Shown in pieces: positions 7,423-39,231 of a DNA stretch of 64,000 nt; position 1 is the stretch's first letter, and each line of letters begins with the position of its first letter. The translations under genes and the position numbers were made by a program. The notes under the pieces were generated by a model. The model did no database searches. It had not been told where the DNA came from and saw only the letters and a program-made list of their open reading frames with translations. This DNA is from Rathayibacter tritici (lineage in GTDB: Bacteria; Actinomycetota; Actinomycetes; Actinomycetales; Microbacteriaceae), in the NCBI RefSeq assembly GCF_002932875.1, contig NZ_PSWS01000039.1, forward strand, positions 39,755 to 103,754, written 5' to 3'.

Positions 7423-8262
7423 TCAGGTGGGCGGTGCGAGGGCATAGCCGGACTGCTCCTGCAGAATGCGACTGAGGGGGACGTAGGTCATGAAGTCGGG
7501 ATCCGGGTCCACCGGATACATGCCCTCGCTGATGATTCCGTACAGCGTCCCACTCCTGCTCGCCACCGGTCCTCCCGAATCACCGTCTTCGACCTGGTTG
7601 CGGAAAGTCCTCGCGCCGAGGATGTACGGCGGAGAACCGGGCGGAAGCGGATGGACACCCCAGGTGCAGTTCACGCCGGAGTAGGCGCCGCTCGTGCAGA
7701 AGACCTCATTGACGCCGGGGACGCCCATTCCGGTGACGGGCAGGCTTGCGTAGCGTCCGCCGTTGTCGAACAGGAAGATTCGGCCGGTTGCTCGCCGGGT
7801 ATAGGCCGTGGCGACGGTACAGCGGTGGAGCGCCGAGCTGGGATCGCAGCCGAAGTTGTTCTCGGCGATCGGGTCAATCCGCGCGATCTCCGCGTCGAGT
7901 ATTGGCGATTCCCAGATCACCGAGCCGATGATGCCCTGGAGGTTCACTCTGACCGGGTCGCCTACGTGGCCGCAGTGTCCCGCCGTGACGATGTAGCGCG
8001 TCGCCCGGGCCGACGGAGCCATCGACCCGTACCAGGTCGTGGAAATGAGGACGGCGCCGACGGTGCATCGGAATGTCCCGATTGCGACGTGGCTCCCGGC
8101 CTGAATGGGGATCTGCTCGCGGAATTCGGAGACAGCGCTCGCCGGCGCAGCGCCCGCGCTGAGCATTCCGAGCGTGACACCGACGCCGATGCAGGCGAGC
8201 AGTATCCGTGTGCCGAGTCGCCGCCTGAGCCGGTGGCGCCGAGCAGAAAAATGAGCAGTCAT
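7423..8262 (-). CDS. Secreted S1-family serine protease, paralogue B
   Basis: A 279-residue paralogue of the protease ending at 4987, similar over its full length. It has a basic N-region and signal peptide (cleavage near APASA), then the triad VTAGHCG (His96), LDAEIARID (Asp123) and DGDSGGPV (Ser about 229). Both paralogues share the stretches VSEFRE, CTVGAVL, MGVPGxNEVFCTSG and GVNCTWG. ATG 8262 is chosen over the in-frame start at 8337 because AGAGGA lies 6 nt upstream. It converges on the aminotransferase gene, so the aminotransferase is enclosed by the two protease copies, suggesting duplication around it. Confidence 0.88.
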   Translation of the reverse strand: MTAHFSARRHRLRRRLGTRILLACIGVGVTLGMLSAGAAPASAVSEFREQIPIQAGSHVAIGTFRCTVGAVLISTTWYGSMAPSARATRYIVTAGHCGHVGDPVRVNLQGIIGSVIWESPILDAEIARIDPIAENNFGCDPSSALHRCTVATAYTRRATGRIFLFDNGGRYASLPVTGMGVPGVNEVFCTSGAYSGVNCTWGVHPLPPGSPPYILGARTFRNQVEDGDSGGPVASRSGTLYGIISEGMYPVDPDPDFMTYVPLSRILQEQSGYALAPPT

Positions 8263-8324
8263 CGAGGTCCTCTTCCGTCCTCGGCAGGCTGGCAGGGACT
8301 GTCGGGGGAAGGCCGATCTCGGGC

Positions 8325-8339
8325 TGAGGATGTCCACAC
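8325..8339 (-). promoter_or_regulatory. Shared upstream motif (copy 3, protease B)
   Basis: TGAGGATGTCCACAC on the plus strand matches 12 of 15 positions of the motif at 4900 and 5952, and lies 63 bp upstream of the protease B start. Confidence 0.4.
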
Positions 8340-8390
8340 CGCCGCGCGCGGAGCGGGATTCTCAGAAGCGCAGCAATAAGAAGTGGCGTC

Positions 8391-9134
8391 CTAAGAAGCG
8401 CTATGCAGCGCGAACGCCGTCACGAACCCGAGTACCGCGTAGAGCCCCGTGAGCACGTTGTCCCGGTCAAAAGCCTCCGGGATCATCGTGTTCGAGATCA
8501 TCGCCAGGATCGCGCCTGCGGCGACGGTCGTCACAAACGCCACCACCGCTCCCGGTGCCGTCGCGAAGACCAGGAAGCCGACGAGCGCGGCCGCGGCCGA
8601 GAGCGCCGCGATCCCGCCCCAGACGGTGAAGACGTAGCGGGCGGATCGGCCGTCCGTCTTCATGCCGACCGTGGAGGAGAGGCCCTCGGGCAGGTTCGAG
8701 ATCGCGACCGCGGCGACGATCGGCACACTGATCGCCGCTCCCGTCCCGCCCTGCGCGACCGAGAGGCCGAGCACGATCGACTCCGGAATGCCGTCGATGA
8801 GCGCGCCGGCGGCGATCGCCGCTCCCGCGCCGCCGCCCGACCCCTTGGCGCTCTTGCGGTTCCCCGCCCCCGCTCGCGTGAGCAGCGCGTCGGCGCCGAC
8901 GAAGACCACGGCTCCGGCGAGGGTCCCGAGGATCGTCGCGAGCAGCCCGCCGTCGTCCACCGCCTCCTGCACGAGCTCGTACGCGAGCGCCGAAATCAGC
9001 ACGCCCGCGCCGAACGCCGAAATCGCGGCGGTGAGCTTGGGAGGGACGCGCACGAACCAGGCGAGAAAGGCGCCGATCAGAAGGGTGGCGCCACCGATGG
9101 CGCCACTGATGAGGGCGAGGGTCCACGCAGGCAC
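8391..9134 (-). CDS. ZIP-family divalent metal transporter
   Basis: A 247-residue polytopic protein with about eight membrane segments. The ZIP metal-site signatures appear as ALIDGIPESIVLG (TM4) and ISNLPEGLSS (TM5), with MIPEAF near the end; the usual TM4 histidine is replaced by Asp (DGIPES), which occurs in part of the family. It probably imports Zn, Fe or Mn across the cytoplasmic membrane. The GTG start at 9134 follows GAGAGG by 8 nt. It runs in the same direction as the upstream glycosyltransferase pair, 73 bp away. Confidence 0.85.
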   Translation of the reverse strand: MPAWTLALISGAIGGATLLIGAFLAWFVRVPPKLTAAISAFGAGVLISALAYELVQEAVDDGGLLATILGTLAGAVVFVGADALLTRAGAGNRKSAKGSGGGAGAAIAAGALIDGIPESIVLGLSVAQGGTGAAISVPIVAAVAISNLPEGLSSTVGMKTDGRSARYVFTVWGGIAALSAAAALVGFLVFATAPGAVVAFVTTVAAGAILAMISNTMIPEAFDRDNVLTGLYAVLGFVTAFALHSAS

Positions 9135-9207: not shown

Positions 9208-10305
9208 TCAGCGGCGACCGGCCGCCGTCACGCGCGGTGCTCCGGCCGTCGCGATGCTGTGCTGGTAGAAGAGCCAGCCGAACACGATGGTCCCGAAGAG
9301 GAGGATGACTCGCGCGAGGACCACCGCCGCAATGGCCACCGTGCCATCGACGCCGCCGGCGACGAGGGTTCCCACCATCGCGACCTCGTAGCCGCCCACA
9401 CCGTTGGGTGTGACGATGACCATGCTGGCGACCGTGGCCACGCCGTAGGCCACGAAGACGAGTGCGGGATCGGCGGCCGTCCCGAACGAGGCGAGAGCCA
9501 CCCAGAACAGCCCGGCATCGAGAGCGTTCACCGCGAAGGACCAGGCGAACGGAGCGATGAGGGCGCGCGGCCGGGTCAGGACACGACGCAGCTCGAGATG
9601 CAAACCGTCGAAGAAGCGCACCAGCGCTACCGTGTCGATCCTCGAGCGGCGCCGGAAGAGCCGTACGGCGCGATCGGCCGCGCAGGCGACGAATCCGGCG
9701 AACCGGTGCAGCAGGCGGCGGCGGCGCAGCAGCACCAAGCCGGCGATCGTGGCGCCGATCGCGAGGCCGCCGATGAGGGCGGCGAGCCACAGCACTCCCG
9801 GCGCCGGATCGCCCGAGAACAGGAGCGAGCCGGCCGCGACGAGGAGCAGGAGGAGGAAGGAGGCGAAGGTCACGGCGAAGCGCGCGAGCTGGGCGAACGT
9901 GGCGCGGCTCACTGGCACGCCGAGGGTGCTCAGCTTCCACGCCGTATAGGCGATGCCGGCGGAGCCGCCGGCGGGCAACATGTGATTCGCGAAGTTGAAC
10001 TCGAGCGACATCCGCATGGCCGTGAGTGGACCCACCCGCGAGATCTCGCCCTGGGAGCGGAGGAAGGAGAAGAGGACCTCACCCGTGGCAGCGAAGCTCG
10101 CGAGCTGCAGGGGCACCAGCAGCACGAGGATCCACAGGTTGATCCGGTTCAGGTTCCCCACGGCGTCGACCACGGTCGGCCAGGCGCTCCACACGATCAG
10201 CGCAACGATGACAGCCGTCGCTGCGCTCAGCCAGAAGCGCGGGGACTGGTACCAGTGCGGGCGGGGAACGACCGCGGCGGGCGTCGTACTCACAACCTCG
10301 CTCAT
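9208..10305 (-). CDS. Lysylphosphatidylglycerol synthase-like transmembrane protein (UPF0104/YbhN family)
   Basis: A 365-residue integral membrane protein with roughly eight hydrophobic segments and the family motif TPNGVGGYEVAMVG in the C-terminal third. It resembles only the flippase half of MprF; there is no aminoacyltransferase domain. Such proteins often sit beside glycosyltransferases and may move a glycolipid across the membrane. The ATG at 10305 overlaps the glycosyltransferase stop in ATGA, so the pair is translationally coupled. The frame stays open to 11217 only because of high GC. Confidence 0.82.
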   Translation of the reverse strand: MSEVVSTTPAAVVPRPHWYQSPRFWLSAATAVIVALIVWSAWPTVVDAVGNLNRINLWILVLLVPLQLASFAATGEVLFSFLRSQGEISRVGPLTAMRMSLEFNFANHMLPAGGSAGIAYTAWKLSTLGVPVSRATFAQLARFAVTFASFLLLLLVAAGSLLFSGDPAPGVLWLAALIGGLAIGATIAGLVLLRRRRLLHRFAGFVACAADRAVRLFRRRSRIDTVALVRFFDGLHLELRRVLTRPRALIAPFAWSFAVNALDAGLFWVALASFGTAADPALVFVAYGVATVASMVIVTPNGVGGYEVAMVGTLVAGGVDGTVAIAAVVLARVILLFGTIVFGWLFYQHSIATAGAPRVTAAGRR

Positions 10306-11168
10306 CGAGGTGACGGATCCGCTGGGGACGTCACGGACGCGGGCGGTGCGGCCACCGGCGCCGAGCACGTGCGTCGCCGGGCCGGGTTGCCGTAGCCGTG
10401 CCGCGCGAGGGTCAGCGTGTCGGTGCGGTAGTAGCGGGAGAGCTTGTCGCGGTCGATCGAGCGGAACAGCCGGGCCTTCACCATCGCCGTCGGTGCGTAG
10501 CGGAGGGAGTGGCCGGTGCGCAGGAGGGCGATGGTGACATCGACGTCCTCGCTGATCCCTTCGTCGTCGGCTCCGACCAGGGGCCGGGCCGTGAGCCACG
10601 CGTTGCGGCGGAACGCGCTGTTGAAGCCGTAGAGCATGGGCCGCACACCGATGCTGCGCTGGTGCCACGCCCGAAAGCCCCGGTACCAGCAACTGAACCA
10701 GAACCGGCCGTGGGGGGAGAGCTCGGCGACCGCTGCGCCCCCGCCGATTCCATCGATGTCCTCGGTCGCGAAGATCATGCGGATGCTCTCGACCCAGTCG
10801 GCGCGGACGAGCGAGTCGGCGTCGATCCGGGCGATGACGTCTCCTCTGGCGGCGTCGAAACCGCTCGAGCGCGCGTGGCCGACGCCGCGACGCGGTTCGT
10901 GCACGACCCGAACCCGCGCGAATCGAGCGACGATCGCGAGCGTTGCGTCGCGACTGCCGTTGTCGACCACGATGATCTCGTCGGCCGGATCGCTCTGATT
11001 CGCGAGCGCCTCGAGGCATCTGGCGATGATCACCTCCTCGTTGAAGGCGGGGATCACGACCGAGACGGTGGGTCGCCGGTCCGCCCGAGGGCGCAGAGCA
11101 CCGGGGGCGCTGTCGAGATGTCCCTGGGCGCTGTCGTGGTGCCCCTGGGCGCTGTCGTGGTGTGGCAT
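10302..11168 (-). CDS. Family 2 glycosyltransferase
   Basis: A 288-residue GT-A fold enzyme. Motifs: VSVVIPAFNEE (nucleotide binding, ~35-45), VVDNGSRDAT, RIDADS (DxD-type metal site) and ISEDVDVTIALL (acidic acceptor region). No membrane segment is evident, so it is cytoplasmic or membrane-associated. It likely adds a sugar to a lipid or surface polymer with help from the coupled flippase-like protein. The first 22 residues contain a seven-residue unit (HHDSAQG) repeated three times, encoded by 21-bp DNA repeats; the true start could lie after these, near residue 33, but no good alternative codon with a ribosome-binding site is obvious. Confidence 0.82.
   Translation of the reverse strand: MPHHDSAQGHHDSAQGHLDSAPGALRPRADRRPTVSVVIPAFNEEVIIARCLEALANQSDPADEIIVVDNGSRDATLAIVARFARVRVVHEPRRGVGHARSSGFDAARGDVIARIDADSLVRADWVESIRMIFATEDIDGIGGGAAVAELSPHGRFWFSCWYRGFRAWHQRSIGVRPMLYGFNSAFRRNAWLTARPLVGADDEGISEDVDVTIALLRTGHSLRYAPTAMVKARLFRSIDRDKLSRYYRTDTLTLARHGYGNPARRRTCSAPVAAPPASVTSPADPSPR
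11105..11164. repeat. 21-bp tandem repeat, three copies, in glycosyltransferase N-terminus
   Basis: Units begin at 11105, 11126 and 11147 with GGGCGCTGTCG. The second and third are nearly identical and the first has a few changes. Being a multiple of three, copy-number change would keep the frame. Confidence 0.8.
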
Positions 11169-11295
11169 GGAAGCAGCCGATTCTGTCCGGAGGGCCGCAG
11201 CGGTGGTGCCCGATCAATGAGGTTCCTGAGACCCGGCACAGCGGGTCGGCTCTGCACTGTATCCCTCTCCCCTGTCCCGCACGGGCAGTACGACG

Positions 11296-11682
11296 TCAAA
11301 TCCGGCAACGATGGCGCGCGTCAGGATCGCTGCGGCCCGGTCGTACCGCGGATTCCTCGACTGCCTCGGCGTCGCCACCGAACCCGGACGGGGGGCGCTC
11401 GGCGGTCAGGCGTCGGTGGTCCGCCCGCGGGGGCCGACGGGCACAGTCGCGTCCGGTGCGCGCGGCAGGTGGACGAGCGAGCAGGACGGAGACGATCATC
11501 AGCAGGAACCAGGAGACCAGCGTGGACGCCGACACGGGCTGCCAGCCGACGACCTGATCGGGGTAGAGCCAGGCCCCCGCCGAGGTCGCGATGCTCTCGG
11601 CGATCCCGATGAAGAGCGCGACCAGCGTGAACGCCACGAGCAACGGCATCCGGTGCGTTCCGCGGTGCACGCGGTACACCAT
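11296..11682 (-). CDS. Small hypothetical membrane protein
   Basis: A 128-residue frame filling the gap between the glycosyltransferase and the VWA gene. Two hydrophobic stretches (about residues 13-35 and 48-70) around a short polar loop (YPDQVVGWQP) suggest two membrane helices; the last 55 residues are arginine-rich and may not be conserved. The start is uncertain: the frame opens at 11730, but ATG 11682 avoids overlap with the divergent VWA start. No family recognised. Confidence 0.45.
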   Translation of the reverse strand: MVYRVHRGTHRMPLLVAFTLVALFIGIAESIATSAGAWLYPDQVVGWQPVSASTLVSWFLLMIVSVLLARPPAARTGRDCARRPPRADHRRLTAERPPSGFGGDAEAVEESAVRPGRSDPDARHRCRI

Positions 11683-11717
11683 CGTGGTGCCGGGGCCCGC
11701 CGCGTCGGGCGTCCCCA

Positions 11718-11723
11718 TAAACT
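11718..11723 (+). promoter_or_regulatory. -10 hexamer of leaderless promoter for VWA gene
   Basis: TAAACT ends 6 nt before the ATG at 11730, with no ribosome-binding site between them. Confidence 0.5.
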
Positions 11724-11729
11724 GACGCA

Positions 11730-13004
11730 ATGGCGGAGTTCAGCGCGACGGTTTTCCAGAACGAGTTCCTCTCGGACGGCGCGACTGATGTGCACGCCAT
11801 TGTCACGGTGACCGCGTCCGGCACCGGAGCCGCCGGGTCCGACGGTGCCGCAGCCGAGATCATCATCGTCGACTGCTCCGGATCGATGACGGGCGAGAAC
11901 ATGACGGCCGCCAAGCGCGCCGCCGCCGTGGCCGTCGACCAGATCGTTGACGGCACATTCTTCGCGATCGTCGCCGGCTCCGAGCGTGCCGACCGCGCCT
12001 TCCCCTACCCCAACGCCACGGTGTCGATGGTGCGCATGGAGCCGGGTGCGCGTGCCGCGGCGAAGGAAGCGATCGGCTACCTCCAGGCCGACGGCGGCAC
12101 CGCGATGGGCACCTGGCTGACCCTCGCCCGCCAGCTGTTCGCGACAGTTCCGGAGGCGACCCAGCGGCACGCGATCCTGCTCACGGACGGCAAGAACGAG
12201 CACGAGTCGCGGATGCAGCTCGATGCGGCGATCCGAGCGGCGGGCGGCGAGTTCCAGTGCGACGTGCGCGGCGTCGGCTCGCGCTGGATCGTCGAGGAGG
12301 CGCGCACGATCGCGAGCGCCCTGCTGGGTACCGTGGGCCTGATCGCGAACCCGGCCGACATGGCCGCCGACTTCGAGACGCTGATGCGGGCGTCGATGGG
12401 CCGCGGAGTCGCCAACGGCGAGCTGCGGGTGTGGACGCCGCAGGGCGCGCAGCTGCTCTTCGTCCGCCAGGTGGCGCCGAACCTCGAGGACCTCAGCGTC
12501 CGGCGCTCCGCCGTGAATCCGCTCACCGGCGCCTACCCGACCGGCGCCTGGGGCGATGAGTCTCGGGAGTACCACGTGGCTGTCCGGGTCGCATCGAAGC
12601 CGGTCGGTGCGGAGCAGCTGGCCGCGCGGGTGCAGCTCAGTGTCCGCGACCAGGTGGTCGCCTCCGCCCTGGTGAAGGCTCGCTGGACCGACGACTCCGC
12701 TCTGACCGCCCGTATCGACCCGGCCGTCGCGCACTACACCGGCCAGACCGAGCTCGCCTCGGCGATCCAGGACGGACTCGCGGCGAAAGCCCGGGGCGAC
12801 GAGGCGACCGCGACGGTGAAGCTTGGCCGCGCCGTGCAGCTCGCGTCCGTCACCGGGAACGACGAGGCGACCGCGAAGCTGCGCAAGGTCGTCGAGATCG
12901 ACAACCCGAACGAGGGGACGGTGCGGCTCAGGCGCGGTGTCGACCGTCTCGACGAGATGGCGCTGGACACCGCGTCGACCAAGACCACACGGGTGCGCAA
13001 GTGA
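11730..13004 (+). CDS. VWA-domain protein
   Basis: A 424-residue protein with a von Willebrand factor A domain at about residues 40-220. The MIDAS metal site is intact: DCSGSM (Asp48, Ser50, Ser52), the Thr in DGGTAMG and TDGKNE. There is no signal peptide, so it acts inside the cell. The C-terminal half (about 230-420) is a beta-rich region followed by helices with no family I can name. It overlaps the FHA gene in GTGA. VWA, zinc-ribbon/FHA, PP2C and Hanks-kinase genes recur together in Actinobacteria, so it is probably a partner in phospho-signalling; the binding partner is unknown. Confidence 0.85.
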   Translation: MAEFSATVFQNEFLSDGATDVHAIVTVTASGTGAAGSDGAAAEIIIVDCSGSMTGENMTAAKRAAAVAVDQIVDGTFFAIVAGSERADRAFPYPNATVSMVRMEPGARAAAKEAIGYLQADGGTAMGTWLTLARQLFATVPEATQRHAILLTDGKNEHESRMQLDAAIRAAGGEFQCDVRGVGSRWIVEEARTIASALLGTVGLIANPADMAADFETLMRASMGRGVANGELRVWTPQGAQLLFVRQVAPNLEDLSVRRSAVNPLTGAYPTGAWGDESREYHVAVRVASKPVGAEQLAARVQLSVRDQVVASALVKARWTDDSALTARIDPAVAHYTGQTELASAIQDGLAAKARGDEATATVKLGRAVQLASVTGNDEATAKLRKVVEIDNPNEGTVRLRRGVDRLDEMALDTASTKTTRVRK

Positions 13005-14005
13005 GCTTCCGCTGCCCCGAGGGGCACACCTCCCAGTCGGGCGACTACTGCGACGTCTGCGGGGCGCCGATCGGAGCCGCGCCGGTCACGCCTCCCGCTC
13101 CCGCCGCGCCGACCACGGCGATCCCGACCGGACCCTCGGTCTGCCCGCACTGCTCGTTCCCCAACGAGGCCGGTGCGCTGTTCTGCGAGAACTGCGGCTA
13201 CGACTTCACCACCGGCTCCCTGCCCGAGGCCGATCCGTTCACCGCCTCGGGCGCCGTGCGCGCGCCGGGCGAGGTCGGCGGATCGGCGACACCGGGCGGC
13301 GACCCGGCCGAGCACCCGGGGGAGGCCCCTGCGCCGCGGGTCGACCCCGCGGCTCCGACCGAGCTCATTCCGGAGCAGGAGGCGGGCTTTGACACGCCGG
13401 TCGCGACGGTGCCGCCGGCCGGCTCCGCGGCTGTTGCCGCGGCTGTTGCTCCGCATGCCGCCCCGCCGACCGAGGTGATTCCGGAGGTGGCGCCGCCGGA
13501 GAAGGCCACGTCCGCGCCGGCCACCGGGTCCGCCCGCACGGCCACCGGGTCCGCCCGCACGGCCACCGGGTCCGCCCGCACGGCCGCCTCCGCCGATCCG
13601 GACCGCCCCTGGATCGCCGAGCTCTGGGTCGATCCTGAGTGGTACGCCGAGCAGCGCGCCGACGACCCGATGCCCTCGCCCGGACCGCCCGCGACGGTCG
13701 TCCTGCGCGAGCGCACCGAGCTGGTGGGGCGGCCCTCCGTCTCGCGCGGCATCTCGCCTCAGGTCGACTGCGGCTCCGACTCCGGAGTCTCACGCCGGCA
13801 CTGTCAGCTGAGCACGGACGGCTACCGCTGGTGGGTCGAGGACCTGCAGTCGGCGAACGGCACCTACCTCGCGGCGGCCGGCGCACCCCTCCCACAGACG
13901 CCGATCGCGGCCGGTCAGCGGCGTGAAGTGCAGGAGGGCGACCGGATCTACCTCGGCGCCTGGACCCGGATCGTCCTCCGCCTCGCGCTCCCCGGCGAGG
14001 CGTAG
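13001..14005 (+). CDS. Zinc-ribbon and FHA-domain protein
   Basis: A 334-residue protein. Two zinc ribbons at the N-terminus (CPEGH...CDVCG and CPHCSFPNEAGALFCENCG, residues ~5-67) are followed by a ~140-residue Ala/Pro-rich linker and a C-terminal FHA domain (about 245-334) with the phosphothreonine-binding pattern GRPSVSRG, SGVSRRHCQL and SANGTYL. It should read phosphothreonine marks set by a Hanks-type kinase such as the one convergently encoded next door. GTG 13001 overlaps the VWA stop (GTGA). The linker contains a triplicated seven-residue unit, TGSARTA. Confidence 0.87.
   Translation: MSFRCPEGHTSQSGDYCDVCGAPIGAAPVTPPAPAAPTTAIPTGPSVCPHCSFPNEAGALFCENCGYDFTTGSLPEADPFTASGAVRAPGEVGGSATPGGDPAEHPGEAPAPRVDPAAPTELIPEQEAGFDTPVATVPPAGSAAVAAAVAPHAAPPTEVIPEVAPPEKATSAPATGSARTATGSARTATGSARTAASADPDRPWIAELWVDPEWYAEQRADDPMPSPGPPATVVLRERTELVGRPSVSRGISPQVDCGSDSGVSRRHCQLSTDGYRWWVEDLQSANGTYLAAAGAPLPQTPIAAGQRREVQEGDRIYLGAWTRIVLRLALPGEA
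13520..13582. repeat. 21-bp tandem repeat, three copies, in FHA-protein linker
   Basis: Three near-identical units starting at 13520, 13541 and 13562, each beginning GCCACCGGGTCCGCCCGCAC, encode ATGSART three times. In-frame expansion in a disordered linker. Confidence 0.85.
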
Positions 14006-31748: not shown

Positions 31749-32822
31749 GTGGATCCGTTCTCCCCCCTCACCGCCGGCGACCTCGATCTCGCCAACCGCA
31801 TCGTCCTGGCTCCGATGACGCGCTTGCGCTCCGACGAGCAGGGGGTGCCCGGCGCGATCGTCGCCGAGTACTACGCCCAGCGCGCCAGCATGGGCCTGCT
31901 GATCAGCGAGGGCGTCTTCCCCAGCGCCGAGTCGAAGGGCTACGCCGGGCAGCCGGGCATCGAGACGGACGCGCAAGCGGCCGGTTGGCGTGCGGTCGCC
32001 GACGCCGTGCACGCCGCGGATGGACGGATCGTCATGCAGCTGATGAACGCGGGCCGGGTCTCGCACATCGAGATCACCGGGACCGAGCGGATCGTCGCCC
32101 CGAGCGCCGTCGCCATCGACGGCGAGGTGCACACCCCCTCCGGCAAGAAGCCGTTCCCGGTGCCGCACGCGCTGAGCACCGAGGAGTTGGCGATCGTGCG
32201 GGACGAGTTCGTCGCGGCCGCCCGTCGCGCGATCGACGCGGGCTTCGACGGGGTCGAGGTGCACGGCGCCAACGGCTACCTGCTGCACGAGTTCCTTTCG
32301 CCCGTCTCGAACGTGCGCACCGATCAGTACGGCGGGACCCCGGCCGAGCGTGCCGCGTTCGTGCTCGAGGTCACCCGCGCCATTGCCGACGAGGTCGGCG
32401 CCGGACGCGTCGGCATCCGCCTGTCGCCGGCCCACAACATCCAGGACGTCGTCGAGACCGACGCCGACGACGTGCGCGCCACCTACGAGGCTGTGGTCGA
32501 CGGGCTCGCTCCGCTCGGGCTCGCCTACCTCAGCGTGCTGCACGCCGAGCCGACCGGCGAGCTGGTCCAGAGCCTTCGCTCCCGCTTCGACGGCGTCTTC
32601 ATCGCCAACAGCGGCTTCGGCTCGCCGACCAGCCGCGAGGAGGCGACCGAGCTGATCACCGACGGTCACGCGGACGCCGTGGCGGTCGGCCGTCCGGCGA
32701 TCGCCAACCCCGACCTGGTCGAGCGCTGGCAGGGCGGGCACCCCGAGAACGAGGTCGTCCAGGAGACGGTCTACGGCGGCGGAGCCGAGGGCTACACGGA
32801 CTACGAGCGCCTCTCGGCGTAG
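31749..32822 (+). CDS. Old Yellow Enzyme family ene-reductase (NADH:flavin oxidoreductase)
   Basis: A 357-residue FMN TIM-barrel: NRIVLAPMTRLRSD, IVMQLMNAGRVSH, GFDGVEVHGANGYLLHEFLSP (substrate-binding HxxN), FIANSGFG and AVAVGRPAIANPDL. It reduces the C=C bond of enones or nitroalkenes with NADPH; the physiological role is usually detoxification. GTG 31749 is the start, with AGAAAGG about 7 nt upstream. It is divergent from the TPM gene and ends at a strong terminator. Confidence 0.9.
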   Translation: MDPFSPLTAGDLDLANRIVLAPMTRLRSDEQGVPGAIVAEYYAQRASMGLLISEGVFPSAESKGYAGQPGIETDAQAAGWRAVADAVHAADGRIVMQLMNAGRVSHIEITGTERIVAPSAVAIDGEVHTPSGKKPFPVPHALSTEELAIVRDEFVAAARRAIDAGFDGVEVHGANGYLLHEFLSPVSNVRTDQYGGTPAERAAFVLEVTRAIADEVGAGRVGIRLSPAHNIQDVVETDADDVRATYEAVVDGLAPLGLAYLSVLHAEPTGELVQSLRSRFDGVFIANSGFGSPTSREEATELITDGHADAVAVGRPAIANPDLVERWQGGHPENEVVQETVYGGGAEGYTDYERLSA

Positions 32823-32852
32823 TCGGTGCACGTTCCGTCCTCACCAGACAGC

Positions 32853-32890
32853 CGGAAGGCCCGTTCCCTCGACGGGGAGCGGGCCTTCCG
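32853..32890 (+). terminator. Stem-loop terminator after ene-reductase
   Basis: GGAAGGCCCGTTCCC pairs with GGGGAGCGGGCCTTCC around TCGAC, then GTGTT. It is a clear GC-rich hairpin 30 bp after the stop. Confidence 0.8.
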
Positions 32891-33332
32891 TGTTCCGCTG
32901 CGGCCCGTTGGCTGCTAAGGCGCTCTTCCTCGATCTGGGCGGACTACCGTCGGACGCGGGCGACGCCGGACCCCTAGCGCCGAGAGATCAGGGGTGTCAC
33001 AAACGTCGCGCCCTGAATAACGGAGACCTTGCCGGTGCCAGAGTCCGCCCCTGCGATGCGGATACCGCGGGCCACGCGCTCGGGTACGACACCTCGCCAC
33101 CAGTCAGCAGGTCTGCTCTTATGCCACGAGCAGGACGGGTGCAGTCGCCCACCCCGCTGCCGAATGCCAATCAGGCGCCGAAGCGCGCCAGATGCGGTTT
33201 CCTCATTTTCTCCTGCTAAGTTCGTGTCGAACATTTAGCCCAGGGGTCGAGGAACGTGAGCGGCATGCCTCACGCGGCGTTCTGCTCTACTTGCCGGGGC
33301 GGTTATTAGTTTACCGTGGAAGTGAGAAAATT
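32891..33332. other. Gene-poor junction before the low-GC operon
   Basis: About 440 bp without a convincing gene. A minus-strand frame at 32974-33234 (86 codons, ATG start) exists but has no recognisable domain and no ribosome-binding site; it could be a decayed gene. GC falls steadily from about 33190 onward. GTTCG-TGT-CGAAC at about 33220-33232 is a small palindrome. No tRNA, integrase or inverted repeats typical of an insertion sequence were seen. Confidence 0.5.
33318..33326 (+). promoter_or_regulatory. Ribosome-binding site deciding the TTG start at 33333
   Basis: GGAAGTGAG lies 6 nt before TTG 33333. The frame is open from 33192, but no better start with such a site occurs before the conserved region of the aminotransferase. 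Confidence 0.5.
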
Positions 33333-34613
33333 TTGTCGATCGAAAATACTCAGGTAACTGATCCAAGCGCTGTCTACTATCCAGTTACGGCGCAGAAGAT
33401 GGTCCGAGGAGAAGGCGTTTACCTCTTCGATGACGAGGGTAACGCGTTCCTCGATTGTGCGTCGGCGACCTTCAACCTGAGTCTCGGGTACTCCCACCCG
33501 GCCGTCGTCAAGGCGATTAAGGATCAGGCTGATCAACTTATCCACGTCACGAGCAGCTTCCAAACAGATCAAATTAATCATCTCTCGCGGCGCCTCGCTG
33601 ACCTTGCTCCCGCGTCCATTACTCGTACGCACCTTAAAGTTGCCGGTGGATCGGAAGCAAACGAGGGCGCAATCAAGATGGCTCAGCGGGCAACGGGAAA
33701 ACGAGACGTTATTACGCTCTTTCGAGCGCACGTCGGTCAGACGATGATGATGACGAGCATGTCAGGCAACGCTTTCCGCCGGGAGCCATTTCAGACGCTT
33801 TTTCATAACTCGCTTCAGGTCCCCGATCCGTACTGTCACCGGTGCTTCTATGGGCAGCAAAAAGCCAGCTGCGGCTCGCTATGTACCGAGCGCCTGTACG
33901 ACTTCATGGAGTATGCCAGCAGTGGAAGCGTAGCGGCGTTCATGGTCGAGCCAATTTCCGGGAACGGCGGCAACATAGTCCCGCCTGATGGCTACTTCCA
34001 AAAGTTGCGTAAATTCTGCGACGATACTGGCGTCAAATTGATTCTCGACGAAATTCAGACAGGCATAGGACGGACGGGCCGCATGTTCGCGGCCGAACAT
34101 TTTGCCGTTGAGCCTGATGCGATCACGGTCGCAAAAGGTCTAGGCGGCTCCGGCGCGCAAGTCGCGGCCATCCTCGCCAGCGATGACATGGCCGGACTGC
34201 CCAGTGATCAGCACTCCTTCACATATGGTTCTAATATCATGGCCGCGGCGGCGGCCATCGCGACCCTCGAGGTGATCGACAATAAGGAATTCCTCGCTAA
34301 CGTTCGTGCGACGGGTGACCGTATCCTCGGGCGGTTGAACGAAATGAAAAGAAAATATGCGGTGATTAACGATGTGAGAGGCGTCGGTCTGATGATCGGA
34401 ATCGAAATCGCTGACGTAGACGGAACGCCGAACGTTGACCTAACCAACGATCTTGCTCGAAAGGCGATGGACTTCGGATTGATTATGCGTACTTCACGGT
34501 ACGGACGCGGCAACGTCCTGAAGATCCGCCCGCCTCTCATCTTGACGATGACCCAAGCAGATGACATCTGCGACCGGTTCGAACGGCTCCTCGCAGCTCA
34601 TGCCAACTTCTGA
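33333..34613 (+). CDS. Class III PLP-dependent enzyme (aminotransferase or phospho-lyase), low-GC operon gene 1
   Basis: A 426-residue fold-type I PLP enzyme. Visible: GEGVYLFDDEGNAFLDCAS, VAGGSEANEGAIKMAQRATG (cofactor phosphate), a cysteine-rich insert DPYCHRCFYGQQKASCGSLC, ILDEIQTGIGRTGRMFA (cofactor Asp) and TVAKGLGGSG (Schiff-base Lys). Class III members include omega-aminotransferases but also ethanolamine-phosphate and phospho-hydroxylysine phospho-lyases; the kinase downstream makes the latter possible. GC is clearly lower than in the surroundings (codons such as AAA, ATT, GAT frequent). It overlaps the next gene by 14 bp. Confidence 0.82.
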   Translation: MSIENTQVTDPSAVYYPVTAQKMVRGEGVYLFDDEGNAFLDCASATFNLSLGYSHPAVVKAIKDQADQLIHVTSSFQTDQINHLSRRLADLAPASITRTHLKVAGGSEANEGAIKMAQRATGKRDVITLFRAHVGQTMMMTSMSGNAFRREPFQTLFHNSLQVPDPYCHRCFYGQQKASCGSLCTERLYDFMEYASSGSVAAFMVEPISGNGGNIVPPDGYFQKLRKFCDDTGVKLILDEIQTGIGRTGRMFAAEHFAVEPDAITVAKGLGGSGAQVAAILASDDMAGLPSDQHSFTYGSNIMAAAAAIATLEVIDNKEFLANVRATGDRILGRLNEMKRKYAVINDVRGVGLMIGIEIADVDGTPNVDLTNDLARKAMDFGLIMRTSRYGRGNVLKIRPPLILTMTQADDICDRFERLLAAHANF

Positions 34614-35823
34614 CGTAGATTTCGAAATCCTCTTCCTTGGAGGTGGCTTTCGAACGACGACGTTCCTCGCCTCGGCCCCCTGGTTGCTCAAGCGACGCAT
34701 CGGAATTGTTGAGAAGCGTACCCGGGTAGGGGGTGGTGATTTTCACGGCTACGCGATTCAAAGCACTTCTATCGGCTCAAGATTCTTTAAAGATATTGAT
34801 TTGAAGGCCGATTTTGCTCCCCTCCTCAGCGACGACCTCGTAGGGAAAGTCGCCAACGCTAAAGGGCCAATCGACCTTCGACAGCTGGCTTCAGCCTTGG
34901 ACAGAGTCGGCGCTGTCCTCACCGGAGCGCTTCCCGCGGAAGCGGTTATGACCGGGTGTGCGGGGCGAGAAATCGTTGTCTGCGGCGGCGCGCCTCGAGT
35001 GACGCTGGACACTGGACAAGAGCTGACCTCGCGTCATCTCGTGATCGCAACAGGGCGACATGAGTTGCTCCACCCAGCACTCGAGATGTGGCGCGACAAA
35101 ACGATCCTCTCCGGACATCTCCTCAACCCGGCTGAAGAGGCGCGCACGCTCGACACCCTTGACATGCATCCTACTAAGCCGATCGTTGTCGCCGGATCGT
35201 CGCATTCTGCGATGTCCGCCCTTCGCGTCCTACTGGCCCTTCGAGCGCGGGCTCCCCAAAAGTTTGGAAAGCGAGAGATCTTGGTACTGCAACGGTCGAA
35301 AGCTCGCTTGTTTTACTCCTCGCGGGAGGAAGCTCGTATTTACCAGGATTTGAATCGAGAGGTGCCGGTGACGGACGCGGCAGTGTGCAGTGCATCGGGA
35401 AATGTCTTTCGGGATACTGGCTTGCGACATGAGTCCAAGGCTATCTTCTTACGTGCGTCTCAGGGGCAGATCTCTCAAGTCTCAATGATGCCCATCAGTT
35501 TGCTGCAAGATCAGCGCGATTTGTATGACCGGGCGGCACTCATTGTTCAGGCGCTCGGGTACGTCGGCCGGACTCCTAAAATTATGCACAGCTCCGGTCG
35601 GATGGTTCGCGCGCCAGACACGCCTTTCCGTCTCGCCGCAGATCGGCAAGGGCGAGTTCTCATCGATGGCTCTCATCGAAACGACATCACAGCGCTTCGG
35701 CTCGATCCGACTCCGCCCGAGTACCAGGACAACGCTCAGTATGGGCAAGAGCTTTACCGAGACCTCTCCACTCGGCTGAGTGAGCATCTGAAAATTCTGC
35801 GTCCCACGAGGTGGCCCTCATGA
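34600..35823 (+). CDS. FAD/NAD(P)-binding oxidoreductase, low-GC operon gene 2
   Basis: A 407-residue protein with two Rossmann motifs: ILFLGGGFRTTTF at residues ~9-21 (FAD) and PIVVAGSSHSAMSALR near 190-205 (NAD(P)H). HLVIATGRHELL near residue 150 and a late ALIVQALGYVGRTP complete the two-dinucleotide-binding flavoprotein pattern. It resembles flavin monooxygenases of the N-hydroxylase or Baeyer-Villiger groups, but I cannot assign a reaction. ATG 34600 gives a 14-bp overlap with gene 1; ATG 34561 is an alternative. The stop overlaps gene 3 in ATGA. Low GC like its neighbours. Confidence 0.72.
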   Translation: MPTSDVDFEILFLGGGFRTTTFLASAPWLLKRRIGIVEKRTRVGGGDFHGYAIQSTSIGSRFFKDIDLKADFAPLLSDDLVGKVANAKGPIDLRQLASALDRVGAVLTGALPAEAVMTGCAGREIVVCGGAPRVTLDTGQELTSRHLVIATGRHELLHPALEMWRDKTILSGHLLNPAEEARTLDTLDMHPTKPIVVAGSSHSAMSALRVLLALRARAPQKFGKREILVLQRSKARLFYSSREEARIYQDLNREVPVTDAAVCSASGNVFRDTGLRHESKAIFLRASQGQISQVSMMPISLLQDQRDLYDRAALIVQALGYVGRTPKIMHSSGRMVRAPDTPFRLAADRQGRVLIDGSHRNDITALRLDPTPPEYQDNAQYGQELYRDLSTRLSEHLKILRPTRWPS

Positions 35824-37196
35824 GCACTTCCATACCTGCCTTCGACGCGGTCCTGGCCGGCGTCTTCGAGAGACGGACTCATGTCGCACCAATAGTTGTC
35901 GGCATTACCGGGCCAGATACATCCGGCAAGAGTCAGATGGCGAGTCGGATGCAGGCAGTGCTGGCTCAGTCCGGGGTTGCGGCTACTATCGTTCACGTCG
36001 ATGACTTTCACAACCCGAAAAAAATACGTTACGACGAAAGGCTCACTGAATCAGAAGCGTATCTCGAGAAAAGCATCGACATGGAACGGCTGATTGACGG
36101 CCTTCTTCGACCATTACGCGACACGGGGACGCTTAATGCTCAGCTTCAGCACCTTGACCTCGATAGCGATACGTTCTCCATAAAAAAGAATTACGTCGTC
36201 GCCGCCGGTGGCGTCATGATAGTCGAGGGAATCTTCTTACTCCGAGAAGATGTGCGGGAATTCATCGATTACATGGTTTTCCTGCACGTCGAGCCCCAGG
36301 AAATGCTCGACCGAGCGTATCGCAGGGACGTGCCACATCAAGGACTCAGTGTCCTACGCAAGTATCATGAAAAATACATCCCGGGACAACGGTTCTTTCT
36401 ACAGCAAAATCGCCCCCAGGACCATGCGGATGTTATCATCGATAATTCTCGGTGGCATTCACCAACTGTCATTCCGGTTGCCCGCACAGTTCAATCGCTT
36501 TTGGAGGAAGTCGACGCTCAATGGATCCTCTTTGATCTATGGGAAACATTAGTCCCGCTACCTCAAGCGACGAAGGCGCAAGCATTCTACGCTTTCTGCG
36601 AGCATCTCGACGAGGATCCGAGGTTATTACGGACGGCCTGGGACGCAACACGGCAGGCAAGAGAGACGAGGCCTCTCGAGCAATACCTTGACGAGTTATC
36701 ACAGAACCTAGATAAAAAATGGTCGAGCACTGCTGTTCGCGACGCCTTGGCTGCGCGTCGCGCTATTCATGGTGCAGAATTTTATGCTGCACAGCCGAGA
36801 ATCACGAGAGAGTTAGGAAAAATCAGCGGATCTGGTCGGCTTCTCGGGTTGGTGTCGAATTGCAGTTCAGATGTTCGCTCGTTACTCGCTGATTCGGGTA
36901 TTTCCGATTCTTTTGCGGCCATAACACTTTCTTCGGAAGCGGGAAGGATGAAGCCGGCGCCGTCCATTTTTGAGCAGGCAGCTGCCTTGCTTAACGCAAC
37001 TCCGTCGGAAACAATCTTTGTCGGAGATGGTTCAGACTTCGAACTTGTCGGCGCGCTCACCGCGGGGCTTCACCCTGTCCGCCTGGCGGTGCATGATCGA
37101 ATTATGTGGCCCGGGACAACCGTGGACACCCTTTCAATATTAGCTGATGCATGTGCGGCAAATCCACGACGAAATGAAAAATTAAGGGAAGGGTAA
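35820..37196 (+). CDS. Uridine-kinase-like P-loop kinase fused to HAD hydrolase, low-GC operon gene 3
   Basis: A 458-residue two-domain protein. Residues ~20-215 are a uridine-kinase/phosphoribulokinase-like NTPase: Walker A GPDTSGKS (31-38), HVDDFHNPKKIRYDE, GGVMIVEGIFLL and YRRDVPHQG. Residues ~233-445 are a HAD domain: WILFDLWETLV (nucleophile Asp239), LVSNCSSD, RMKPAPSIFEQA (Lys) and IFVGDGSDFELVGA. The second Asp of the HAD DxD pair is Trp (DLW), as in HADs that are not typical phosphatases. A kinase and a hydrolase in one chain suggest phosphorylation and removal of phosphate from one small molecule. ATG 35820 overlaps the upstream stop (ATGA) with AGGTGG before it. Confidence 0.75.
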   Translation: MSTSIPAFDAVLAGVFERRTHVAPIVVGITGPDTSGKSQMASRMQAVLAQSGVAATIVHVDDFHNPKKIRYDERLTESEAYLEKSIDMERLIDGLLRPLRDTGTLNAQLQHLDLDSDTFSIKKNYVVAAGGVMIVEGIFLLREDVREFIDYMVFLHVEPQEMLDRAYRRDVPHQGLSVLRKYHEKYIPGQRFFLQQNRPQDHADVIIDNSRWHSPTVIPVARTVQSLLEEVDAQWILFDLWETLVPLPQATKAQAFYAFCEHLDEDPRLLRTAWDATRQARETRPLEQYLDELSQNLDKKWSSTAVRDALAARRAIHGAEFYAAQPRITRELGKISGSGRLLGLVSNCSSDVRSLLADSGISDSFAAITLSSEAGRMKPAPSIFEQAAALLNATPSETIFVGDGSDFELVGALTAGLHPVRLAVHDRIMWPGTTVDTLSILADACAANPRRNEKLREG

Positions 37197-37199
37197 AGG

Positions 37200-37850
37200 A
37201 TGTCAATGCTTGACCACGTCGACCTCGTGATATTCGACTGCGACGGAGTTCTCGTCGACAGTGAGGTGCTCGCCGTCGAGGTCGACAAGCGGATCTGTGC
37301 AGAATTCGGTTGGGAGCTGTCCACCGAGGAGGTCGTCGATCGCTTCCTCGGCAGACCCGCTTCCCACTTCTGTTCGCAGCTCGAGGAGCACCTGGGTAGG
37401 AAGCTACCGCTCGACTGGGAAGAGAAGTACCAGCCGTGGTACGACGAGGCCTTCGACGCCCATTTGCAGGCGGTCCCCGGCATCGAGGCCGCTCTCGACC
37501 AGCTCGAGTTCCGAACCTGCGTTGCGTCGAGCGGCAGTCACGAGAAGATCCGAAAGACCTTGGGGCACACAGGTCTCCTTCGTCGCTTTGAGGGCCGCAT
37601 CTTCAGCTCCTCGGAAGTGCTCAACGGCAAACCTGCACCGGACATCTTCCTGCACGCCGCTCACCGGTTGGGGCACCAGCCGGAGAACTGCGTTGTCGTG
37701 GAGGACAGCAAATACGGAGTCCGCGCCGCCCGCGCCGCAGGAATGCGTGTCTTCGGCTACGCCGGCGGGCTGACCCCCGCCTCGTGGCTGGAAGCCGAGG
37801 GAGCCACCGTCTTCACCTCGATGGCGGAATTGCCCGGCATGCTTCACTGA
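37200..37850 (+). CDS. HAD-IA phosphatase (beta-phosphoglucomutase/YieH-like)
   Basis: A 216-residue HAD with the full motif set: VIFDCDGVLVDSE (DxD), VASSGSHEKIRKTL (motif II Ser), NGKPAPDIFLHAA (Lys) and VVEDSKYGVRAARAAG (acidic pair). It should dephosphorylate a small phospho-metabolite or act as a phosphomutase. It begins 3 bp after gene 3 with AAGGGAAGG in front, so it is co-transcribed with the low-GC operon, yet its own GC is clearly higher. Either it is a host gene captured behind the island or it was acquired from another source. Confidence 0.85.
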   Translation: MSMLDHVDLVIFDCDGVLVDSEVLAVEVDKRICAEFGWELSTEEVVDRFLGRPASHFCSQLEEHLGRKLPLDWEEKYQPWYDEAFDAHLQAVPGIEAALDQLEFRTCVASSGSHEKIRKTLGHTGLLRRFEGRIFSSSEVLNGKPAPDIFLHAAHRLGHQPENCVVVEDSKYGVRAARAAGMRVFGYAGGLTPASWLEAEGATVFTSMAELPGMLH

Positions 37851-37892
37851 CGCCGCTGGACGCTCGCGTTCGGTCGAGATACTGCGGCTCGA

Positions 37893-38066
37893 TCAGCTCG
37901 CGCCGCCACGATTCTTCAGCTCGGATTCGATCCGGGCGTCCTGCTCGGGGGAGAGCTCGTGGTCCTCGTCCTCCGGGCCAGCCGTCTCGCCGACGCGCCC
38001 CTCGCCGAGGGCATGGATCGAGGTGATCTCGTCGTCGAGGGCCGCGTCGCGGTCGTGCTCGCTCAC
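37893..38066 (-). CDS. Small acidic hypothetical protein
   Basis: A 57-residue frame (GTG 38066 to TGA) reading SEHDRDAALDDEITSIHALG at its start, very rich in Asp and Glu. Its GTG overlaps the stop of the upstream 80-residue gene (GTGA), which argues for real translation. No family recognised. Confidence 0.6.
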   Translation of the reverse strand: MSEHDRDAALDDEITSIHALGEGRVGETAGPEDEDHELSPEQDARIESELKNRGGAS

Positions 38067-38305
38067 GAGCCGGTCTCGATCTCCCCGGCGGAGACGGCCT
38101 CGGCGTACTTGCGGAGGTCCGGGCCGGGCTCGAAGTCGATGAAGCGGTCCTTCAGACGCGCGTTCAGCTCGGCGAAGACGTCTTCCCAGGGCTCACCCTT
38201 CTTGCTCGTCGCGAGGTCGAGTACCGCCTCGCGGAGCACTCTGTCCGAGTCCTCGAGGATCTTGTCTCGGGCTTCGTCGTTCCAGCGGATGTCCTGTGCG
38301 TCCAT
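38063..38305 (-). CDS. Small hypothetical protein
   Basis: An 80-residue soluble protein beginning MDAQDIRWNDEARDKILEDS with an amphipathic, charged composition. No motif recognised. ATG 38305 has TACGGT ending 6 nt upstream, the same leaderless layout seen elsewhere. It is coupled by a GTGA overlap to the 57-residue acidic protein. Confidence 0.65.
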   Translation of the reverse strand: MDAQDIRWNDEARDKILEDSDRVLREAVLDLATSKKGEPWEDVFAELNARLKDRFIDFEPGPDLRKYAEAVSAGEIETGS

Positions 38306-38311
38306 GCTCTG

Positions 38312-38317
38312 ACCGTA
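38312..38317 (-). promoter_or_regulatory. -10 hexamer of leaderless promoter for 80-residue gene
   Basis: TACGGT on the minus strand ends 6 nt before the ATG at 38305. Confidence 0.45.
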
Positions 38318-38411
38318 GGCGCGGGGCCGGGGCCGCCCAAGGACTTGCGGGGCGGTCGCGGGAGGCGTAGGAGGGGCGGGCATCGCTCCGCGGTGACGCG
38401 TCGGAGCACCG

Positions 38412-38417
38412 TAGGAT
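38412..38417 (+). promoter_or_regulatory. -10 hexamer of leaderless promoter for TauE/SafE gene
   Basis: TAGGAT ends 7 nt before the ATG at 38425. Confidence 0.5.
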
Positions 38418-38424
38418 TCCCCCG

Positions 38425-39231
38425 ATGCTGACCTTCACCGAGGATCTCGGCCTCCCCGTTCTCGCGCTGATGATCCTTGCCGCCTTCGCGGCCGGCTGGA
38501 TCGACGCGGTGGTGGGCGGCGGTGGCCTGCTCCAACTCCCCGCCCTCCTGCTCGTCCCCGGCATCTCTCCCGTGCAGGCCCTCGCCACGAACAAGCTCGC
38601 GTCGGTCTTCGGCACGACCACCAGTGCGATCACCTACTACCGCCGGGCGAGACCGGACCTGCGCACCGCGGTGCCGATGGCGGCGGTCGCCCTCGCGGGC
38701 AGCTACGGTGGTGCGACGCTCGCCGGCCTGCTTCCGGCCACGGTGTTCAAGCCGATCATCGTCGTTGCGCTCATCGTCGTCGCCGTGGTCACGATCGCGC
38801 GTCCGGCCCTCGGCAGCGTCACCGTGCTCAAGCACGCGGGCCGCCGGCACCTCGTCACGGCGGCCGTCCTCGGACTCCTGATCGGCTTTTACGACGGCCT
38901 GATCGGTCCCGGCACCGGCACTTTTTTGATCATCGCCCTGATCACTGCGCTGGGCTACGACTTCCTGCTCGCCAGCGCGAAGGCGAAGATCGTCAACGTC
39001 GCGACCAACCTCGGCGCCCTGCTCTACTTCGTGCCGGGCGGCCACGTGATCTGGCTGCTCGGCCTCCTGATGGGCGTCGCGAACGTCGCGGGCGCCTACC
39101 TCGGCTCCCGGATGGCCGTGGCCCGCGGCAGCCGGTTCATCCGCGTCGCGTTCCTCGTCGTCGTCGGCGCCCTCATCCTCAAGGTCGGCTCCGACGTCTG
39201 GACCGAGAACCTGGCGCCGCTGCTGCGGTAG
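38425..39231 (+). CDS. TauE/SafE-family sulfite/anion exporter
   Basis: A 268-residue membrane protein with eight predicted helices. The duplicated TauE signatures are AGWIDAVVGGGGLLQLPALLL in the first half and GFYDGLIGPGTGTFLIIALI in the second. Family members export sulfite, sulfoacetate or other small anions. No sulfur genes are adjacent, so the substrate is open. Confidence 0.88.
   Translation: MLTFTEDLGLPVLALMILAAFAAGWIDAVVGGGGLLQLPALLLVPGISPVQALATNKLASVFGTTTSAITYYRRARPDLRTAVPMAAVALAGSYGGATLAGLLPATVFKPIIVVALIVVAVVTIARPALGSVTVLKHAGRRHLVTAAVLGLLIGFYDGLIGPGTGTFLIIALITALGYDFLLASAKAKIVNVATNLGALLYFVPGGHVIWLLGLLMGVANVAGAYLGSRMAVARGSRFIRVAFLVVVGALILKVGSDVWTENLAPLLR

Follow-up and report, generated by a model that had tools for sequence, protein, structure and literature searches.

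Azasugars are sugar mimics that block sugar-cutting enzymes. As given in passages of Beal and Horenstein (PMC8382821), the azasugar three-gene cluster (3GC) encodes an aminotransferase (AT), a phosphatase, and a dehydrogenase; the 3GC AT carries the consensus SGNxFRxxxFPNx7LxVPxPYCxRC, and the gene order major facilitator superfamily (MFS) transporter-AT-phosphatase-GutB1 is given for Bacillus velezensis. For flavin N-hydroxylases in general, amino sugars are listed among the substrates in part of PMC7347517, a review. The layout of an N-hydroxylase, a methionyl-tRNA synthetase (MetRS)-like protein, and a cupin is that of standalone hydrazine synthetases in passages of PMC8664883; there and in parts of PMC11705231, an amino acid and an N-hydroxylamine are linked by the MetRS-like portion, and the resulting ester is converted by the cupin, through rearrangement, into an N-N bond. 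Here we compare with these systems a four-gene block of Rathayibacter tritici, contained in a stretch of 64,000 nucleotides of contig NZ_PSWS01000039.1 (the window). Its features, in window positions, are as follows.

33333 to 34613, + strand: GabT1-type class III AT (P0001), predicted to act on phosphoketoses, TTG start
34600 to 35823, + strand: flavoprotein, distantly SidA/PvdA-like, predicted N-hydroxylase
35820 to 37196, + strand: kinase-HAD fusion gene, uridine-kinase-like P-loop kinase plus HAD domain
35820 to 36500, + strand: uridine-kinase-like P-loop kinase domain of the fusion, boundary approximate
36501 to 37196, + strand: HAD domain of the fusion, boundary approximate, motif I DLWET
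37200 to 37850, + strand: last HAD (P0004), HAD phosphatase with intact motif I
33191 to 33332, strand unassigned: leader before the AT, low in guanine plus cytosine (GC), 0.528 versus 0.675 at 33000 to 33190

Our preferred explanation, for which we consider the chances of being right or wrong to be evenly balanced, is that the block is a horizontally acquired variant of the azasugar pathway in which a sugar-derived amine would be N-hydroxylated and not ring-closed by a dehydrogenase. In the open-licence literature, as represented by titles and the beginnings of abstracts, no description of an azasugar-type AT with an N-hydroxylase was found.

The aminotransferase and the composition of the block

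The first gene encodes a class III pyridoxal phosphate (PLP) enzyme (PF00202, E = 4e-91) whose PLP lysine lies within TVAKGLGG. In the consensus region, which reads SGNAFRREPFQTLFHNSLQVPDPYCHRC, 14 of the 16 fixed residues of the consensus printed in PMC8382821, in the passage concerned, were matched, with FQT where the consensus has FPN. The gap from FPN to L was 2 residues shorter than printed, and the same was true of the ATs of three MFS-AT-phosphatase-GutB1 loci (L045 to L047) from sampled Bacilli genomes, in which the phosphatase was recognized by eye. The window AT was 57 to 59% identical to these Bacillus-type ATs, 44 to 46% identical to three Paenibacillus-type ATs, 42% and 37% identical to a Streptomyces AT and an Erwinia AT, respectively, and 34 to 36% identical to three other class III ATs. 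Identity to the ATs of syntenic operons was 69% for Fictibacillus nanhaiensis (genome G001, locus L007), 70% for G608 (L068), and 55% for G927 (L069). In a tree whose root was unsure, given long outgroup branches, the window, Fictibacillus, and G608 ATs formed one group (98/99) that adjoined the ATs of GutB1-bearing loci, apart from the three other class III ATs; the G927 AT paired with that of G240 (97/93), the locus of which has neither GutB1 nor the flavoprotein.

ATs at E <= 1e-100 were present in 18 of the 398 Bacilli-class genomes sampled, and a GutB1-like gene stood beside the AT in 5 of the 6 neighborhoods from these genomes that were inspected besides L007. On plasmids, where the three best distinct relatives were inspected, the Paenibacillus polymyxa gene was next to genes for a HAD phosphatase and for a product annotated as gutB1, the Erwinia tracheiphila gene adjoined dehydrogenase, HAD, and MFS genes, and the Streptomyces locus included a dehydrogenase and a glycosyltransferase. 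These results strongly support the assignment of P0001, by homology, as a GabT1-type azasugar-pathway AT. The original prediction had held that the gene set matched no known pathway; since the first gene groups with GabT1-type ATs, its first step is already published. The companion suggestion that the PLP enzyme might be a phospho-lyase was rejected on the motif and on the tree (which contained no phospho-lyase), its closest relatives among the ATs compared being GabT1-type. In a search of the PDB with P0001, a racemase (242 bits) outscored ethanolamine-phosphate phospho-lyase (196 bits); the azasugar-type ATs compared were 37 to 59% identical.

The relationships of the AT also bear on an aminocyclitol-type pathway, in which the enzyme, like ValM, would aminate a cyclic ketone and the kinase and phosphatase would act as their counterparts do on the way to C7-cyclitols. 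ValM shares a similarity cluster with GabT1 in passages of PMC8382821; however, no cyclase gene was noticed by eye in the window operon region or in the relatives' clusters (no search with a cyclase model was made), and the window AT was closest, among the ATs compared (ValM not among them), to those of GutB1-bearing or flavoprotein-bearing loci. We regard this pathway as very unlikely. As for the azasugar dehydrogenase itself, a search of the whole window with P. polymyxa GutB1 gave no match at E = 1e-3, and none of PF00107, PF08240, and PF16912 was found in the operon proteins. The block was not filed as a 3GC because this defining dehydrogenase was searched for and absent.

Two further ATs were observed. 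The G240 gene (L048, G240:C1:1758000-1772000) is a GabT1-like AT at 7773 to 9083 on the - strand, 52% identical to the window AT and with no GutB1-like neighbor; its neighbors encode amino-acid-kinase-family, NDK-like, and NTP_transf_5 proteins, an MFS transporter, and a 769-residue protein without a Pfam match, and by eye NDK-like and nucleotidyltransferase-like genes are apparently present in G927 too. At 6045 to 7379 the window has a second class III AT, of host-like composition and about 30% identical to P0001, which is apparently a resident gene.

The block had been predicted as four linked genes at 33333 to 37850, and four same-strand open reading frames (ORFs) bore this out, with a 14-bp overlap between the AT and the flavoprotein (34600 to 34613), an ATGA overlap between the flavoprotein and the kinase-HAD gene (35820 to 35823), and a 3-bp gap before the last HAD gene, whose start is preceded by the purine-rich stretch AAGGGAAGGGTAAAGG. 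An alternative, longer AT frame from an ATG at 33192 would add 47 residues without counterpart in the relatives. Composition was referred to 44 background ORFs of the window (GC 0.709, standard deviation 0.026, lowest 0.624; lowest codon adaptation index [CAI] 0.466), chosen by a GC-by-codon-position heuristic, so that some may be spurious. Against this reference, GC, GC at third codon positions, and the CAI z-score were 0.553, 0.64, and -3.5 for the AT, 0.574, 0.61, and -4.1 for the flavoprotein, and 0.528, 0.54, and -4.8 for the kinase-HAD gene, all three of which fell under every background ORF in both GC and CAI. The last HAD gene did not; at 0.631, 0.80, and -1.7 it was intermediate and the least foreign of the four. 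The proposed contrast in composition and its restriction to three genes thus both held, with 53 to 57% GC in these genes versus 71% in the background ORFs. The left edge of this compositional island is near the leader at 33191 to 33332. The window yielded no tRNA, and a repeat search of 32700 to 38450 gave short, weak pairs only; a 20-nucleotide pair of 75% identity at 32783 and 37793 brackets the block, probably by chance. DNA similarity in the left flank consisted of short Streptomyces plasmid matches only. No integration mechanism is visible at the block.

The flavoprotein, the kinase-HAD fusion, and the last HAD

The window flavoprotein has two Rossmann motifs, GGGFRT for flavin adenine dinucleotide (FAD) and GSSHSA for NADPH (reduced nicotinamide adenine dinucleotide phosphate), and ends in QALGY. 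A profile of its family, compared with two SidA-type N-hydroxylases by hhalign, gave a probability of 95.5 over 309 columns, in an alignment that takes in the two Rossmann motifs as well as the ATGY-like end; two single-sequence flavoprotein controls gave probabilities of 1.4 and 26.5 in the same comparison. For the structure model, the top match was PvdA, tied with flavin monooxygenases, and a distant relative in Shinella carries the annotation SidA/IucD/PvdA family. No Pfam family, PF13434 (Lys_Orn_oxgnase) included, matched the window flavoprotein; 2 of the 6 members of the flavoprotein alignment matched PF13434 at E <= 1. The gene had been called an FAD/NAD(P) oxidoreductase; a closer description of its product is that of a remote flavin N-hydroxylase relative, predicted from profile, fold, and gene company to be a likely amine N-hydroxylase.

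Alternatively, the flavoprotein could replace GutB1 by oxidizing an alcohol or the amine, in which case the aminopolyol would cyclize to a nojirimycin-like ring and the kinase and HADs would handle phosphate only. Its position directly after the AT, which is the place of the dehydrogenase in Paenibacillus-type clusters, would suit this role, and its fold is common to several flavoproteins with two dinucleotide-binding sites. The profile comparison nevertheless favored N-hydroxylases over the two other flavoproteins compared, and an N-hydroxy substrate would fit the MetRS genes of hydrazine-synthetase-like type that the three intact relatives carry (see below); we consider such a replacement unlikely.

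A genome scan with the single protein gave no matches, and an alignment-based scan gave five loci, none of them actinobacterial, which is weak evidence since that scan did not return G608 and G927, which came from another collection. Several relatives lie in other contexts. The distant ones of two gammaproteobacterial metagenome-assembled genomes (L009:194-8005 and L011:9701-17501) were set aside for their different gene context; in both, the flavoprotein heads the same string of genes, by eye an 806-residue dehydrogenase/aminomethyltransferase-like, a peptidase-like, a sulfatase-like, and a TauD-like gene. On plasmid pTM3 of Tistrella mobilis (L001/L008), a relative sits in an apparent uncharacterized small-molecule cluster with, by eye, cysteine-synthase-like, HMGL-like, heme-oxygenase-like diiron, ATP-grasp, and two MFS proteins. 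A further, distant relative, about 25% identical to that of Tistrella, adjoins two ATP-grasp-like genes in G426 (L023, G426:C1:4330000-4349000, at 9210 to 12895 on the - strand), and the pairing of flavoprotein and ATP-grasp recurs across otherwise different loci.

The kinase domain of the fusion was closest to PRK07667 (95 bits, under its curated cutoff) and uridine kinase, likewise below the cutoff, and matched PF00485 at E = 1.5e-6. The Walker A motif is kept in the kinases of the window, G001, G024, G608, and G927; HVDDFHNPK is unchanged in the window, G001, and G024 and shows small changes in G608 and G927. Kinase and HAD are separate genes in Bacillota and fused in the window. The fused HAD domain matched PF00702 (E = 7e-12) and was 38% identical over 204 residues to the separate Fictibacillus HAD. 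The second Asp of HAD motif I is the usual general acid/base. Phosphatases have DxDxT/V; in the fusion the motif is DLWET, with Trp replacing the second Asp, and it is DLWNT in the separate HADs of G001, G024, G608, and G927, so that DLW[EN]T was present in all five loci inspected. The HADs tied to this kinase in the intact relatives, each with the second motif I Asp changed to Trp, are the following.

L007, 11939 to 12616
L068, 10979 to 11644
L069, 11372 to 12049

Because this Asp is absent, ordinary phosphatase activity of the fused HAD is doubtful, and DLW[EN]T suggests a nonstandard function. By contrast, P0004 has an intact motif I (DCDGV), matched PF13419 at 102 bits, and was 41% identical over 186 residues to the HAD phosphatase of the P. 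polymyxa azasugar locus; no counterpart of P0004 was seen among the genes of the Bacillota operons.

The gene core in Bacillota and its MetRS-like partner

The four-part core was intact and in order in four loci, namely, the window, L007, L068, and L069, so that the genes do occur together elsewhere, as the original prediction required. The order in G001 and G608 was AT, flavoprotein, kinase, HAD, FemAB/GNAT-like, ATP-grasp, MetRS-like, and MFS, and that in G927 was AT, flavoprotein, kinase, HAD, ATP-grasp, and MetRS-like. In G024 (L022, G024:C2:3926500-3945000) the core has decayed: the genes from kinase to MFS remain open, neither the AT nor the N-terminal portion of the flavoprotein is left at this place, and at 12076 to 13427 a shortened regulator-like gene adjoins a C-terminal flavoprotein remnant. 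The operon had been said to lack a peptide synthetase, transporter, or regulator; this stands for the window, and the relatives' clusters do have ligase-type genes, an MFS transporter (L007 and L068), and, by eye, regulator-like genes upstream.

The core is rare. With matches to the FAD motif alone excluded, the genomes with a whole close flavoprotein relative numbered 1 of 18 in the genus (G001), 1 of 34 in the family (besides the G024 remnant and one FAD-motif match, G033), 1 of 398 in the class sample (where the eight matches were G001, the distant G426, and six to the FAD motif only), 2 of 397 in the order sample, and 1 of 392 in the sample of the Paenibacillus-type order; G001 recurs in the genus, family, class, and order samples. 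Compared with G001 and G608, the window AT was 69 to 70% identical but the flavoprotein, kinase, and HAD only 36 to 39% identical; the corresponding values for G927 were 55% and 38 to 40%. This gap might reflect a mosaic origin or rates of change that differ between the genes.

These comparisons also raise the possibility of a truncated import without a working pathway, in which the ligases and transporter were left behind when the core was acquired and the genes are now under drift. The intact Bacillota loci have from two (G927) to four (G001 and G608) further ligase- or transporter-type genes, and G024 shows that such clusters decay. Yet none of the four window ORFs is interrupted, their overlaps are tight, motifs are conserved in the AT, flavoprotein, kinase, and last HAD, and a plausible phosphatase gene lies 3 bp after the fusion gene, and we find such an import hard to credit.

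A MetRS-like gene follows the core in L007, L068, and L069. Among the best 25 of 317 matched plasmid records, the top match of its product (226 bits) was from Robbsia, where its gene has a lysine N6-hydroxylase/ornithine N5-oxygenase gene on one side and a cupin gene on the other, and the second (221 bits) was from an unannotated Burkholderia locus with, by eye, N-hydroxylase, ATP-grasp, MetRS-like, CoA-transferase-like, and cupin genes; the remaining 23 of these 25 scored at most 122 bits. The proteins of G001 and G024 were 27 to 30% identical to two proteins of N-hydroxylase/cupin loci versus 18 to 23% to three other MetRSs of the same genomes. Extending the preferred explanation, with which it is not exclusive, the family might make N-N bonded amino-sugar conjugates of the hydrazine or azoxy type, in that the MetRS-like protein would O-aminoacylate the hydroxylamine of the core before a rearrangement, with the window operon supplying the hydroxylamine half; we judge this quite unlikely. 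These identities favor the extension, and the co-occurrence of an N-hydroxylase and a MetRS-like protein belongs to the hydrazine-synthetase signature published in passages of PMC8664883 and PMC11705231. However, whole-genome searches of G001 and G024 for the hydrazine-synthetase cupin gave at most 27.6 bits, the best two matches lying within long frames and none at the cluster, and the ORFs of L068 and L069 gave no match. Nor did MetRS-like, ATP-grasp, FemAB-like, and cupin queries, or GutB1, have a match in the window at E = 1e-3; an MFS query weakly matched a resident window MFS gene (22% over 222 residues), which was not counted as a partner. Also against the extension, the tree set the hydrazine-synthetase-side proteins apart from ordinary MetRSs with weak support (77/86). 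N-N bonding in the Bacillota clusters is thus a possibility, not a finding.

Proposed pathway and relation to known systems

A coherent small-molecule operon, probably sugar-derived and combining transamination, oxidation, and phosphate chemistry, had been anticipated and is supported. In the preferred explanation, the AT would aminate C2 of a phosphoketose, most simply fructose-6-phosphate, to a 2-amino-2-deoxy-polyol phosphate, the amination being strongly indicated by homology and the substrate being proposed. The FAD/NADPH flavoprotein would hydroxylate the amine to an N-hydroxylamine, as suggested by its fold, profile, and gene company; P0004 would presumably remove the original phosphate, as is held for HAD phosphatases of Paenibacillus-type azasugar clusters; and the uridine-kinase-like domain would phosphorylate another hydroxyl. 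The fused HAD domain, without the usual acid/base Asp, may serve in binding, in regulation, or in some other reaction. As no GutB1-type alcohol dehydrogenase lies nearby, the oxidation at C6 and the ring closure usual for azasugars would not be encoded. In Bacillota, the hydroxylamine would probably be coupled to amino acids by the MetRS-like and ATP-grasp proteins after the core; the window operon would stop at a simpler N-oxidized amino-polyol or use genes outside the 64 kb.

The flavoprotein and kinase in place of the usual dehydrogenase point to an undescribed kind of amino-sugar product. A GabT1-type first enzyme would here be wired to apparent nitrogen oxidation and, in relatives, to amino acid ligation; genome mining based on the 3GC trio would overlook such blocks, which predict N-oxygenated or N-N bonded amino-sugar products. 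More tentatively, and somewhat improbably, the core might represent a natural-product pathway of a new class. In it, an amine obtained from a sugar would be N-hydroxylated and, in Bacillota, joined to amino acids by a hydrazine-synthetase-like enzyme, and the window would contain the hydroxylamine-making half that has traveled alone into a high-GC bacterium. If this were true, no sugar-polyol metabolites of the hydrazine, azoxy, or O-aminoacyl-hydroxylamine type would have preceded these products.

Like the hydrazine synthetases, the Bacillota loci pair an N-hydroxylase-like flavoprotein with MetRS-like and ATP-grasp proteins, as the Burkholderia locus appears to; unlike them, they have no cupin found at the clusters and an amine donor that is apparently sugar-derived, and the window has none of the MetRS-like, ATP-grasp, or cupin genes. 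VlmJ is the kinase of the valanimycin-type pathway. With such pathways the block and its relatives share the logic of amine to hydroxylamine to aminoacylation, as set out in parts of PMC11705231, but there the N-hydroxylase, VlmH/VlmR, has two components, and seryl-tRNA is the substrate of VlmA. With SidA, PvdA, and IucD the flavoprotein shares two dinucleotide-binding motifs, the overall profile, and the general fold, which flavin monooxygenases match as closely; it differs in falling below Pfam and NCBIfam detection, in its SHSA second motif and QALGY end, and in accompanying a sugar-type AT rather than an amino acid or siderophore pathway, and it was not filed as a SidA-family N-hydroxylase because the PF13434 match failed. 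With the azasugar 3GC the window shares a GabT1-type AT and an adjacent HAD phosphatase of PF13419, which with PF00459 is one of the two 3GC phosphatase families, related to that of Paenibacillus, whereas its operon has, instead of a zinc-type dehydrogenase, an N-hydroxylase-like flavoprotein and a kinase-HAD fusion. The block works like a 3GC and probably also like a SidA-family N-hydroxylase.

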